From positions 124,001-188,000 of the forward strand of contig VXTP01000008.1 of the NCBI GenBank assembly GCA_009837395.1: a stretch of DNA of 64,000 nt, in the 5' to 3' direction. Made by a program: the position numbers and the translations under genes. Position 1 is the first letter of the stretch, and every line of letters begins with the position of its first letter. The notes below the pieces were generated by a model. That model worked only from the letters and a program-made list of their open reading frames with translations, had not been told where the DNA came from and searched no databases. This DNA comes from Gemmatimonadota bacterium. GTDB lineage: Bacteria > JAAXHH01. This document shows positions 1 through 4,995 of this stretch, one piece after another.

Positions 1-178
1 CTGGCACGGCGACGAACGCCGCACCCTCTTCTACAAGTACTCGCCCAATTCGGTATCCTGGTGCGCGGAGTACTACGAAGCCAATGATTACGAGGGACTG
101 ACGGAACGGCAGCAACAGATCCTCGAGGCGCCGAACGCCAGGTACCGGGAGCGGTCCAAGCGTGGGGTTGTGGTGTAG
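1..178 (+). CDS. Phytanoyl-CoA dioxygenase family protein, C-terminal end (partial)
   Basis: Only the last 58 codons are present, reading in frame from base 2 to a TAG at 176-178; the gene starts outside the window. The peptide opens WHGDERRTLFYKYSP and continues NSVSWCAEYY, which resembles the C-terminal strand of PhyH (phytanoyl-CoA dioxygenase) Fe(II)/2-oxoglutarate oxygenases, in which a late Arg binds 2-oxoglutarate. Such genes are abundant in Latescibacteria- and Poribacteria-type genomes. The catalytic HxD..H residues are not in the window, so activity and substrate cannot be judged. Confidence 0.6.
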   Translation, partial: WHGDERRTLFYKYSPNSVSWCAEYYEANDYEGLTERQQQILEAPNARYRERSKRGVVV

Positions 179-304
179 GTGGGCTGGTAGGATCGTAGGA
201 AAGACTAGCCAATCTTCGGCAACATAACTCGGCATCGAAGCTGACTGGATCGTTTGGTTAGGGACAACACCGATATCGAAATCAAGAAAAACGGAAATGT
301 GATT

Positions 305-336
305 TCATTGACATCAACGATATCAATGACTATATT
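305..336 (+). promoter_or_regulatory. Promoter with overlapping dyad operator for the FitAB-type toxin-antitoxin pair
   Basis: TTGACA (308-313), a 17-bp spacer and TATATT (331-336) match a housekeeping promoter in 11 of 12 positions. A 7-bp inverted repeat, TCATTGA (305-311) and TCAATGA (323-329), overlaps the -35 and the spacer. That is the expected position for an operator bound by the ribbon-helix-helix antitoxin encoded from 366. The positions are read directly; repressor binding is inferred from how toxin-antitoxin operons are usually regulated. Confidence 0.65.
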
Positions 337-365
337 GAATCCAAACTAAAAATTTGGAGACCAAA

Positions 366-608
366 ATGGCAAGTATGACAATCCGAAACCTAAGCGAAGA
401 CATAAAAAGGCGACTGCGCATCCAAGCAGCCGAGCACGGCCATTCCATGGAGGAAGAAGCCCGGGAAATCCTTCGAATAGCATTGACCGTAAACAGACCT
501 CCCGTGAAATTGGCACAGTCTATTCGGGCTCGTTTTGAACCCTTAGGCGGTGTCGAACTGGAAGTTCCCCCCCGCAAGCCGATGCGTGATCCACCGAAAT
601 TAGGCTGA
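366..608 (+). CDS. FitA/VapB-type ribbon-helix-helix antitoxin
   Basis: An 80-residue protein. The N-terminal MASMTIRNLSEDIKRRL is the ribbon-helix-helix DNA-binding segment typical of FitA-like antitoxins (strand TIRN, then two helices with the 'GHSMEEEAREIL' pattern). The acidic/proline-rich C-terminal tail should wrap the partner toxin. I chose ATG 366 over the in-frame TTG 354 because GGAG at 356-359 sits six bases before it; ATG 375 is also possible. The stop is 11 bp before the PIN toxin gene, so the two are co-transcribed from the promoter at 308-336. Expected role: neutralise the toxin and repress its own operon. Confidence 0.8.
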   Translation: MASMTIRNLSEDIKRRLRIQAAEHGHSMEEEAREILRIALTVNRPPVKLAQSIRARFEPLGGVELEVPPRKPMRDPPKLG

Positions 609-619
609 CTTCCTTCTGA

Positions 620-1039
620 ATGATTCTTCTCGATACTAATGTCGTATCAGAACTGACGCGTCTCGCGCCTAATCCCTCTGTGATTAACTGGCTTGATGCT
701 CAAGCTGCCAAAGATGTGTTTCTTTCGGCTATCACAGAAGCTGAGCTGCGCTTTGGCGTTGCGATTCTGCCCGAGGGACGTCGGCGTGAAAGACTCGCAT
801 TTGAAGTCGAGAATATGCTACGGGAGGATTTCGAGCGACGCATTCTACCCTTTGATAGCTTTGCGGCTCGTATGTTTGCAGAAATCGCTGCCGATCGACG
901 AGCTATAGGGAAGCCAATCAGCGATGCAGATTGCCAGGTGGCGGCCATCGCAAGATGCTATGGAGCGGCAGTCGCCACACGTAATGTCGGAGATTTCGAA
1001 GACTGCGGAATTGAGTTAATAAATCCGTGGTCCAGTTAA
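620..1039 (+). CDS. PIN-domain toxin of the FitB/VapC type
   Basis: A 139-residue PIN-domain ribonuclease. The acidic metal-binding residues are visible: D5 (MILLDTN), E42 in TEAEL, D104 in SDADCQ and D125 in VGDFED. Length and motif order match FitB-type VapC toxins, Mg-dependent RNases that commonly cleave tRNA or other structured RNA. It follows the antitoxin by 11 bp, the usual antitoxin-first order. Nothing looks broken, so the module is probably functional. The cleaved RNA cannot be predicted from sequence. Confidence 0.85.
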   Translation: MILLDTNVVSELTRLAPNPSVINWLDAQAAKDVFLSAITEAELRFGVAILPEGRRRERLAFEVENMLREDFERRILPFDSFAARMFAEIAADRRAIGKPISDADCQVAAIARCYGAAVATRNVGDFEDCGIELINPWSS

Positions 1040-1150
1040 AGGCATTATAGACAGTCGCAGGATTGAACTACCGGCCGTATCCTCGCTAGAATCCCTGACG
1101 AATGTGAGACTGTCTGCCTCCACTGATCCCAAGTCGGAGAGCATTAAATC

Positions 1151-1243
1151 ATGAGTAAAGTCGACTAACAGGAGATTCTAACGCAGCAACGAGTCTTCGC
1201 GTTGTTTGAAGATAAGATTGGGCACGCCTATCTCGGTGATTGA
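1151..1243 (+). pseudogene. Decayed fragment resembling the N-terminus of a type I restriction subunit (HsdR)
   Basis: Reading frame 1151 gives MSKVD, a TAA at 1166, then QEILTQQRVFALFEDKIG and HAYLGD, then TGA at 1241-1243. The pattern TQxRVxxLFxxxLGYxYLG is typical of the N-terminal nuclease region of HsdR-family proteins. The two in-frame stops and absence of any continuation make this a relic, not a gene. It lies between the FitAB pair and the HNH nuclease operon. The similarity is recalled from the family, not computed, and the stretch is only about 25 residues. Confidence 0.4.
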
Positions 1244-1292
1244 AAAGATCAAATCGACAAAGGGATCTTTCGGCGCGACTCACCGGCGCGAC

Positions 1293-2219
1293 TCACCCCG
1301 CCTTCCTGAAGGTCTCGAACCGACGTTCCAATCGCTCCGGATCTGGATGATCTATTGTGCGTGACGGCAGGTGCAGCCCCGATCCGTCGAGCTGCTTAAG
1401 TGCCTGGAGCATGGGACCATTTTTCTTTTCTAACAGCCGTTCGGATACGTGCAGTCGGTAGTCGGGATCAATGCCGATCAGGTGGGCGTCGAAGGCAGCG
1501 TGATGGATCTTGGACAGGGCCAGTCCGTTCGGTACGACGGGTTGTCCAAGTGCCTCGTCACCATCTGAAATGATGTGTGCTGCGTCAAGCAACTGCGTTT
1601 CCGGCAGGCCGGAAATTGCGCAACGATCGCGATATGCGTGAAGGACGGCTTCGCGAAAGGTGGCCTGATGGAGGCGTTCTTTTACCATGCGCAAAGCATA
1701 CCGACGCTCTACCTCGTTGCTGGGGGCTTCGAACGTCGTCAAACTGGGATTTCCAAAAACCAGTGAAGACTTGAGAGCGAATCCATCCCAGTGGGAGATG
1801 TATGTAGGGACAATCGGCTGATAACGACCGGGTGACACGCCAAGAAAGTAGATAACAGGAATCTGTTTTTCCCAGGCCTCTTTCAGCCACTGGTTGTCCG
1901 CCGCTTCCGGATCCTGACCCATGAAGGCGTAGTCCACGGTCTCCTCGCCCTCAAAGATCTGATGATGGACCTGCCGCTGGTCGTCGTACCAGACCCGGGC
2001 ACCCGGCCTTGGGAACACGGTCCTGATCGAAAGCAGGTACGGCATCTGACGGGGTTTGAAAATCCCTCGCTGCGGGTTTACCAGGGGTATACGATTCCCT
2101 TCATACATGAACCCCGGCGCAAGTTCATTCCTGGTCAGGTGGCCGTGGGTTTCACTCAGCCTTCGTACATGGTCGAAGGCGGCCATCCGCATCCTGGTAT
2201 CGCGGTCCTCAACGTTCAT
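1293..2219 (-). CDS. HNH endonuclease, putative restriction-type nuclease
   Basis: A 308-residue member of the COG3440-like predicted restriction endonuclease family. The N-terminal domain (about 20-170) has the family motifs RGIFKPRQMPYLLSI and IPVIYFLGVSPGRY. The HNH core lies at about 195-255, with CAISGLPE, LLDAAHI (catalytic His), PNGLALSKIHHAAFD and a closing IGIDPDY. The gene sits 9 bp downstream of the next HNH gene, and its ribosome-binding site (AAGGG) lies in that gene's last codons, so translation is probably coupled. The likely role is cleavage of foreign or modified DNA; the target is unknown and there is no cognate methyltransferase in the window, which suggests a type IV-like system. 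Both HNH residues and length appear intact. Confidence 0.75.
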   Translation of the reverse strand: MNVEDRDTRMRMAAFDHVRRLSETHGHLTRNELAPGFMYEGNRIPLVNPQRGIFKPRQMPYLLSIRTVFPRPGARVWYDDQRQVHHQIFEGEETVDYAFMGQDPEAADNQWLKEAWEKQIPVIYFLGVSPGRYQPIVPTYISHWDGFALKSSLVFGNPSLTTFEAPSNEVERRYALRMVKERLHQATFREAVLHAYRDRCAISGLPETQLLDAAHIISDGDEALGQPVVPNGLALSKIHHAAFDAHLIGIDPDYRLHVSERLLEKKNGPMLQALKQLDGSGLHLPSRTIDHPDPERLERRFETFRKAG

Positions 2220-2228
2220 AGCGGTCCA

Positions 2229-3191
2229 TCACCCTTTGTAGATCTTTTCGTTGTGCCAGGATAGCACCTCAGTATCCGGCTGGTCCGCGACCTTCTTTGG
2301 AACGACGATCTGTTTCCCATGCATTGCGTAGTAATCACGACCGTTCTCGAATTCTTCCCGGACCTTTCCGCTGACCTCAAAGTGCAGATCCGGTGTCACG
2401 GTGACGTAACCATAGTCAAACAGTCCGTGAATGTCCTTCCTGAGTAGCAGCCCGTTTGTAGCCTCGTGGACGCCGCCTTTACTAAATGGCTTAATGTGCG
2501 CTGCATCCAGGGCTGGTAACGTCCGCTCACGGGTAACCGCGCAACGTCTGTCATATAGGTCGGTTACAAGTGTCCTGAATGCACCCTGACCGAGGCGAGG
2601 TTTTACCAACTGCGGTTTGCCATAGTGCGCTTGCCCGGTAACAAGGTCCGTGGGTTCGGCGACAATGCCCGCAGGATCGGTGGGCATACTGGTCGCCTGT
2701 CGGAAAACCAACCGGCCATTGACCGCATCCCATAGTTCCCGCCCTTCGGAGTCGTTTGTACTGAAAGTCTTAAATGACACGATATTGGGCGACCAGGACG
2801 ACGGTACCGTAATGAACTCGGATTCCTCGAAGAAGAAGGGTTGGGTAAGGATCCGGCAACCTATCCTGAAATCGCCCAGGTCGTTCGGGTCGGAATTTCG
2901 ATAATGCGAGATCCGATCACGCATTTCCTGGAGTGTGCTGGCGCCGTTTGCTTCTCCGAAGGCTTCCCAGGCCAGGGAGCAGGGCATTTCATTGGCGTAG
3001 GCAAAGACGCCTCCGCCTACGATCACGTTATGGGGTGCGTGCCGTTTGAACAGGAACAGTTCGCCAGGACGAAGCGCTTTAAAGTTTGTGGCAGAAGGCG
3101 CCCAGAAGTTGACTTCGTCAAGATGCGGTTTCTGTCGGAGCGTCTTGAACCAGTCACCATCGGTAACGGCAACGACGAGCTTGATGTCCAT
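2229..3191 (-). CDS. HNH endonuclease with N-terminal EVE/PUA-like reader domain
   Basis: A 320-residue protein. The first ~155 residues (DEVNFWAPSATNFKALRPGE, FLFKRHAPHNVIVGGGVF, SLAWEAFGEANGASTLQEM) form the PUA/EVE-like fold seen in a common HNH family, proposed to recognise modified bases. An HNH core follows at about 205-275: RRCAVTRERTLPALDAAHI, NGLLLRKDIHGLFD and YVTVTPDLHFEV. The ATG at 3191 is preceded by AGGAA with an 8-base spacing. It is the first gene of a two-HNH operon. Modification-dependent restriction is inferred from domain architecture; the modified base is not predictable. Confidence 0.75.
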   Translation of the reverse strand: MDIKLVVAVTDGDWFKTLRQKPHLDEVNFWAPSATNFKALRPGELFLFKRHAPHNVIVGGGVFAYANEMPCSLAWEAFGEANGASTLQEMRDRISHYRNSDPNDLGDFRIGCRILTQPFFFEESEFITVPSSWSPNIVSFKTFSTNDSEGRELWDAVNGRLVFRQATSMPTDPAGIVAEPTDLVTGQAHYGKPQLVKPRLGQGAFRTLVTDLYDRRCAVTRERTLPALDAAHIKPFSKGGVHEATNGLLLRKDIHGLFDYGYVTVTPDLHFEVSGKVREEFENGRDYYAMHGKQIVVPKKVADQPDTEVLSWHNEKIYKG

Positions 3192-3295
3192 CGAAATGAT
3201 TCCTGTTGTCTTCGATGACGAATGGACTCAGGTCGAACCGAAAGCTGAAAGATTCCAGCGGGACAATTCAGTATTCCAGATGTCTGAATATTCAA

Positions 3296-3324
3296 AATAA
3301 AAAATGTATGATGTGACAGGTCAA
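3296..3324 (-). promoter_or_regulatory. Candidate promoter of the HNH operon
   Basis: On the minus strand TTGACC (complement of 3319-3324) is followed after 17 bp by TTTATT (complement of 3296-3301). Matches are 5/6 and 4/6 to the housekeeping consensus. The predicted leader is about 95 bases. Read from sequence only. Confidence 0.4.
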
Positions 3325-3389
3325 GTCTCACGTGTACGAGAAAGCATTATTCAGATCCAATATATAAATGGGACATAGCGGAACTCAGG

Positions 3390-3410
3390 TTGAGTGCTTG
3401 AAATACTCAA
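3390..3410. promoter_or_regulatory. Inverted repeat TTGAGT-N9-ACTCAA
   Basis: Perfect 6-bp arms at 3390-3395 and 3405-3410 are separated by nine bases in the AT-rich divergent region. They could be an operator for either flanking gene; no regulator can be assigned. Confidence 0.3.
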
Positions 3411-3558
3411 TCGGTGATGTTACATAATGACTGAAGGCAAACGGAACACCTGCGAGGTACAGTGACGACTTTTAAGGAATCTGTCCGACCGCCTCGACCA
3501 AATTGCTTTTTTAAACGTTCCTGATTCCATCACACCCCCACACCCACAAGGACACCCC

Positions 3559-4995
3559 ATGACTCCCATCGCCCTGGGATCGCAACGTGAACTCTTCGTA
3601 GATCCCTACCTGATCGACACCCTTAATGGCACTCGTCTGCACCTGCACGCACCTGTTCGGAAGGAGACAGTCTTCCGCGTCGTCGAACCCCTGGAGAACG
3701 CCTGCACGGGATGCTACAACCTGGTTCAGGTGGACGGAAAGATCCTGGTGTACTACCGCGGCTACCACCCCACGGGGAAGCACGAAGATCTGCCCGAGGG
3801 GTGGGCGCAGACGCAGACGACGAACCTGCTGGTCAGCGACGACGGCATCCATTTCGAGCGGCCCGGCCTGGGTCTGGTAGAATCGGAGGGGTCCACGGAC
3901 AACAATATCCTCATCCGGGGCGCCCAGGCGCACAACTTCTGCGTCTTTCTGGACGGCAATCCGTCCGCACCGCCCGAACAGCGTTTCAAGGCCATCGGCG
4001 GAGAGGGCCGGAACATGCTGTTCGGGTTTACTTCTCCCGATGGGCTCGTCTGGGAATCGATCGTGGACGGTCCCCTCAAGATCGAGGGCGCCTTCGATTC
4101 GGTGAACGTGCCCATGTGGGACGACTATGTGGGTTGCTACCGCATCTTCAGCCGGTACTTCGAACAGACCGGGGAGGACGGCGTCGGGGTCCGCGCCATT
4201 CAGAGTTGCACCTCGGATGATTTCATCCACTGGACCACGCCCGAGCATCACTTGTACGACGAAGGCGTTCCGTACGAGCATTTCTACACAAACGCCACCA
4301 CGCTATGCCCCGGGGCGGAACACATCCTGCTGTCCTTTCCCATGCGGTTCGTGCCGGAGCGTACGAAGGATACGGAGGGCATGGACTATCCCGGCGGCGG
4401 GATCTCCGACGCGGTGTTCATGTCGAGCCGGGACGGCGTCCACTGGGACCGCACGTTCATGGACGCGTGGATGAGGGCCGGCCTGGACCAGCGAAACTGG
4501 ACCCATCGCAACCAGACGCCGGCCGCGGGGATCATTCCGACCGCGCCGGACGAATGGTCCATGTACGTCGCCGAGCACTACGGATGGAACACCAACGCCG
4601 TGCGGCGGGTGACCGTCCGTCCCCACGGCTTCGCCTCGGTACGCTCTGGTTACCACGGCGGCGAACTGCGCACGAAACCTCTGACCTTCACCGGGTCGAC
4701 GTTGTTTATCAACTACTCGACGTCGGCCGTCGGAAGCGTATCCGTGGAAATACAGGACGCGGAGGGCCGTCCCCTTGAGGGATTCGCCGCGGGAGACATG
4801 GAACCGCTGTTCGGCGACGACCTCGACGCCCCGGTCGCGTGGCGCGGGGGCAATGGCCCGGTCGGCGGATCGGGTGGTAGCTCGGGCGGTCCGGTCGGCA
4901 AGTCCGACCTGTCCCGCCTGAACGGAACGCCGGTCCGCCTGCGTTTCGTGCTGAAGGACGCGGACCTGTTTTCCATCCGGTTCGGGGATTCCTGA
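3559..4995 (+). CDS. Beta-propeller glycosidase-like protein
   Basis: A 478-residue cytoplasmic-looking protein with no signal peptide. The opening LGSQRELFVDPYLIDTLNG and repeated blocks such as YNLVQVDGKILVYYRGY, LVSDDGIHFERPGLGLVE and SRDGVHWDRTFMDAWMRAG are the Asp-box-like, five-bladed propeller repeats seen in GH43/GH32/sialidase-type enzymes and related uncharacterised proteins of Planctomycetes and Latescibacteria. The C-terminal ~100 residues look like a beta-sandwich with a Gly/Ser-rich linker (GGSGGSSGGPVG). The start at ATG 3559 has AAGGAC upstream. It stands alone on the plus strand. Catalytic residues cannot be assigned, so the substrate is unknown. Confidence 0.6.
   Translation: MTPIALGSQRELFVDPYLIDTLNGTRLHLHAPVRKETVFRVVEPLENACTGCYNLVQVDGKILVYYRGYHPTGKHEDLPEGWAQTQTTNLLVSDDGIHFERPGLGLVESEGSTDNNILIRGAQAHNFCVFLDGNPSAPPEQRFKAIGGEGRNMLFGFTSPDGLVWESIVDGPLKIEGAFDSVNVPMWDDYVGCYRIFSRYFEQTGEDGVGVRAIQSCTSDDFIHWTTPEHHLYDEGVPYEHFYTNATTLCPGAEHILLSFPMRFVPERTKDTEGMDYPGGGISDAVFMSSRDGVHWDRTFMDAWMRAGLDQRNWTHRNQTPAAGIIPTAPDEWSMYVAEHYGWNTNAVRRVTVRPHGFASVRSGYHGGELRTKPLTFTGSTLFINYSTSAVGSVSVEIQDAEGRPLEGFAAGDMEPLFGDDLDAPVAWRGGNGPVGGSGGSSGGPVGKSDLSRLNGTPVRLRFVLKDADLFSIRFGDS

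Follow-up and report, generated by a model that had tools for sequence, protein, structure and literature searches.

Two adjacent minus-strand genes, P2 (2229-3191) and P1 (1293-2219), in the 64,000-nucleotide stretch of Gemmatimonadota DNA analysed here (the window) probably encode two independent modification-dependent (type IV-like) restriction endonucleases, each a single polypeptide, arranged as a modular tandem. They would be two enzymes with different readers, and not a reader together with a nuclease, because P1 appears to have an SRA-like reader of its own. The closest fold relatives of the two proteins, VcaM4I, TagI and ScoMcrA, are all modification-dependent, which supports this explanation. 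Such enzymes are known singly; their pairing here, with different readers, recurs in several separate lineages, and each is often retained without the other, so that the two are best seen as a modular defence duo and not as a single new machine.

Both genes are intact open reading frames, with P2 upstream. P2 encodes 320 aa, with a predicted PUA-superfamily (ASCH/EVE-like) reader at about residues 1-145, a helix linker and an HNH_2 domain at about 200-320, while P1 encodes 308 aa, with a predicted SRA-like reader at about 30-155 and an HNH_2 nuclease at about 180-308. The stop codon of P2 and the start of P1 are separated by 9 bp (2220-2228, minus strand), and a further two species of the genus have the identical gap (three in all). 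The initial annotation had described two HNH genes in one tandem with this spacing, and it turned out that its coordinates were exact and that both proteins match PF13391 (HNH_2) at 42 bits against a Pfam cut-off of 21; neither P2 nor P1 passed any NCBIfam cut-off. The HNH motif residues of the two families are invariant in alignments with 21 and 35 relatives. Three species of the genus carry both genes, and comparing their codons gave a dN/dS of 0.10-0.13 for P1 and P2 alike; therefore both are real, selected genes, and both are under purifying selection.

Upstream of P2 lies an intergenic segment (3192-3558), the presumed promoter region, beyond which a conserved gene for a 478-aa protein (3559-4995, plus strand) runs divergently. 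A promoter candidate had been proposed here, and a consensus scan of the minus strand upstream of P2 gave no sigma-70-like match; the AT-rich flank described with it is present, only mildly so (47-49% GC at 3001-3750 against 60-67% beyond). On the other side of the pair, and outside it, are two plus-strand hotspot genes, a FitA-like RHH antitoxin (354-608; PF22513) and a PIN-domain toxin (620-1039; PF01850), so the FitAB module of the initial annotation was recovered. The HsdR-like relic that it reported was found as well, at 1151-1246 (plus strand), where the sequence aligns at 72% identity (E 4e-8) with residues 1-32 of a complete HsdR and carries two stop codons. That complete gene occupies the corresponding site of a sister species, and the RHH and PIN genes are also at this site in sister species. 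Positions 1-178, considered as part of an HsdR, belong instead to a PhyH dioxygenase gene, of which they are the 3' end, and the HsdR reading was rejected. No methyltransferase gene is among the window ORFs at the locus, as had been stated, nor at most of the relatives' loci, and a few relatives border Type I or ISP systems.

To describe the folds, we used AF2 models built from 19 sequences for P2 and 29 for P1, in alignments without plasmid-collection rows. The P2 model (pLDDT 82) has a PUA-superfamily N-terminal domain followed by HNH. Its best Foldseek match among solved structures is VcaM4I (E 6e-9), with TagI next, and then come stand-alone ASCH domains (TM 0.63-0.67). Against stand-alone EVE-like structures the N-terminal domain reached a lower Foldseek TM, of about 0.4-0.46. 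The EVE/PUA-like N-terminus proposed for this protein thus stands as a predicted PUA-superfamily fold in a protein whose nearest whole-length structural match is VcaM4I, but by these scores the lone domain appears closer to ASCH than EVE. The whole protein is accordingly predicted to join an ASCH/EVE-like reader of the PUA superfamily to HNH. A viral structure search with P2 returned mostly matches to the HNH part or the ASCH part.

The residues invariant among P2 relatives are W30-x-P32, W75 and the HNH residues C217, H232, N246, H255 and D259. VcaM4I flips the modified base into a pocket made mainly of P24, W82 and Y130 (PMC7897488), and in the VcaM4I sequence P24 belongs to a W-x-P motif that closes the second strand. 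Comparing the model by eye, we infer that W30-x-P32, at the matching second-strand end, and W75 would correspond to this pocket. VcaM4I (EVE-HNH, PDB 6yex; PMC7897488) shares with P2 the plan of a PUA-superfamily reader, a helix linker and HNH, and is its top structural match; no whole-length sequence homology was detected between the two, however, since the HNH part alone aligns and the P2 reader is unalignable by sequence. Sequence-profile searches of the isolated P1 and P2 reader domains against the PDB gave nothing real. On a Nitrospirae contig (L012:691-2778), a full-length homologue of VcaM4I (E 8e-89) stands downstream of a frameshifted P2; therefore P2 and VcaM4I belong to distinct families.

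In the P1 model (pLDDT 85), an SRA-like fold is followed by HNH. The best Foldseek match is TagI (SRA-HNH, PDB 6ghs; E 3.7e-6 over 288 columns), and further matches are VcaM4I, ScoMcrA and SUVH5 SRA domains (probability up to 0.93). P1 looks like an SRA-like reader with an HNH nuclease, and each of the two proteins thus seems complete alone. The initial annotation had taken P1 for a second HNH nuclease of a different family, which is right as to the nuclease and misses the reader. The likeness to TagI lies in this domain plan, whereas at the sequence level the resemblance is marginal (E 0.0055) and confined mostly to the HNH part. For both P1 and P2 the whole-chain Foldseek TM-scores are low (0.26-0.32), probably reflecting a differing domain arrangement or orientation. 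ScoMcrA and the SBD-HNH enzymes have the HNH region and overall plan in common with P1 and P2, but neither protein has a sulfur-binding domain match, and against NF045808 (SBD-HNH) they reach 54-59 bits, far below the cut-off of 180. McrBC, Mrr and GmrSD occur in the same hotspot in sister species and share the presumed role, yet they have unrelated nuclease folds or are NTP-dependent machines.

The best-supported reading, by analogy, is that the pair works like VcaM4I and TagI, with a putative dependence of P1 and P2 on modified bases. P2 and P1 would share one transcription unit. In each protein the reader, an N-terminal domain of the PUA superfamily (SRA-like in P1 and ASCH/EVE-like in P2), would flip out and inspect a modified base, which is probably a cytosine, and the C-terminal HNH, presumably autoinhibited until the reader docks, would cut nearby. 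With both enzymes present, a broader spectrum of modified phage or plasmid DNA might be cut, and P1 and P2 would be exchanged as modules within the defence hotspot, neither needing the other.

Generally, solo copies predominate in both families: among 345 genomes of one class, P1 occurs in 21 and P2 in 30. A sample of 384 genomes, drawn mainly from across the domain, contained full-length P1 in 10, and copies exist on plasmids as well; the class-level search around G044 covered three genomes and that of the window's phylum 16. One solo P1 adjoins an integrase. Three species of the window's genus carry the P2-P1 pair, and so does the viral contig L092, at 64/68% identity. Another family of the order contributes G015 (43/37% identity), where the two genes lie on a contig of 3.1 kb; this MAG is 85% complete, and a binning error is possible. 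Within family f257 of another class, G455 carries the pair with a TGATG stop-start overlap, and in G385 (L124:6197-11252) P2 and P1 are each split by inserts of about 1.5-1.6 kb with the order kept. In the same family, G501 has an intact P1 and a P2 relic, and G419 has an intact P2 with only a C-terminal remnant of P1. In G642 the pair stands in reverse order. In taxonomic terms, the recurrence extends from the window's genus and a viral contig to a second family of the order and two families of another class. Joint occurrence and joint loss of P1 and P2, as an obligate two-gene system would show them, are not the rule, as solo copies dominate and the relics show loss of a single partner. The trees scatter the paired members, and the well-supported branches require a minimum of 5 changes between paired and unpaired for P2 and of 4 for P1; therefore pairing arose, or was lost, repeatedly, and trees alone cannot say which.

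For the same 345 genomes, P1 and P2 turned out to be adjacent in 3 of the 5 genomes holding both. Among the matches listed, P2 is adjacent to Mrr in 1 of 15 and to GmrSD, on the opposite strand, in 1 of 11 (2 of 26 combined), and P1 is adjacent to Mrr or GmrSD in 0 of 16. The Fisher p for P1-P2 adjacency is 0.02 against P2 with Mrr/GmrSD and 0.008 against P1 with Mrr/GmrSD, and becomes 0.07 and 0.03 when family f257 is counted once. The initial annotation had suggested a co-occurrence count of the two families, and adjacency came out above chance; the association is likely specific, though it rests on few independent events.

P2 has several other partners besides P1 and the VcaM4I homologue. 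Mrr lies downstream of a P2 relative in G535 and another HNH protein downstream of one in G441. In G556 (L140:1492-3552), an SBD-HNH enzyme (325 bits against NF045808, phosphorothioate-dependent restriction enzyme) follows P2 at about 190 bp. A recognised restriction gene is present within 1.5 kb in 16 of 45 P2 loci, a figure with no matched control. P2 might be the hub of interchangeable two-nuclease type IV cassettes (with SRA-HNH, EVE-HNH, SBD-HNH, Mrr or other HNH partners) whose pairs act jointly, through a shared transcript and perhaps as hetero-oligomers making double-strand breaks at sites with two different marks close together; we put this forward tentatively, as having a small but appreciable chance. 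If true, P2-hub cassettes would amount to a combinatorial defence against phages whose DNA bears several modifications. The same pair of an AAA ATPase and a subtilase also adjoins P2 in the unrelated L125:1986-7182 and L092:1-3374, with an AbiV HEPN gene in one of them.

The surroundings of the pair were compared across the genus (window 1-4995; L095-L097, L101, L169-L176). The 478-aa gene is kept in all 12 genomes, and the contents of the adjoining slot differ among them. Three species have P2-P1 there, a fourth has a relic of P2, and in G010 the pair is accompanied by Mrr, YgjP and HsdR; other slots contain GmrSD and HsdR-family genes (G003, G006), HARE-Mrr with McrB-like and McrC genes (G007), or UvrD-helicase/PD-(D/E)XK genes (G008, G004). 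Restriction genes thus vary beside a conserved gene, and the window therefore shows a restriction-rich hotspot in one of its states, after the loss of an HsdR. Such turnover of defence genes across the 12 genomes, and the interchangeability of partners, would also be expected if P2 and P1 were chance neighbours in a defence hotspot, both restriction enzymes with an adjacency of no functional meaning. The adjacency counts given above, 3 of 5 against the 2 of 26 (P2) and 0 of 16 (P1) with Mrr/GmrSD among the matches listed, argue against this, and we regard it as doubtful.

The initial annotation had put forward the coupled pair as a possible two-component system. In the strict form of this reading, the opposite extreme, both proteins would be needed in one complex, for example as a heterodimeric HNH pair where each reader takes one base and each nuclease one strand. 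Several observations speak for it: the pairing recurs in several lineages, mostly with P2 first, and is more frequent than adjacency to Mrr or GmrSD with the same genes. A coupling closer than mere neighbourhood is hinted at by the strict 9-bp spacing in three species and by G455, where stop and start codons overlap. Yet most copies of each family are solo and either partner decays independently, so an obligate system is disfavoured; besides, the order is reversed in G642 and P2 adjoins other nucleases elsewhere, including other type IV partners. We consider such a system unlikely. That one or both proteins are homing or mobile HNH nucleases, or type II enzymes left after loss of a methyltransferase, is highly improbable: HNH domains are common in mobile genes, and there is the integrase beside one solo P1, but the predicted PUA-superfamily reader folds, the best matches, which are all modification-dependent nucleases, and the lack of a methyltransferase partner at most loci stand against it.

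With the modular tandem of two modification-dependent enzymes as the preferred reading, two candidate readers of modified DNA are added from families annotated just as HNH endonuclease. The tandem recurrence of type IV-like enzymes that differ in their readers raises the question whether readers are stacked against phages with different or mixed base modifications. What's more, new modification-dependent nucleases would be useful reagents for mapping modified bases. Elsewhere in the host (G000 contig C24:164638-165627, L179) there is an intact C5-cytosine methyltransferase gene beside a UvrD-like helicase gene; therefore a 5mC-reading nuclease would have to tolerate its motif, and a conflict between the two is possible. 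Finally, many P2 copies are decaying through frameshifts, stop codons or fragmentation (L017, L018, L151, L031, L099), which suggests fast turnover or a cost of the gene.
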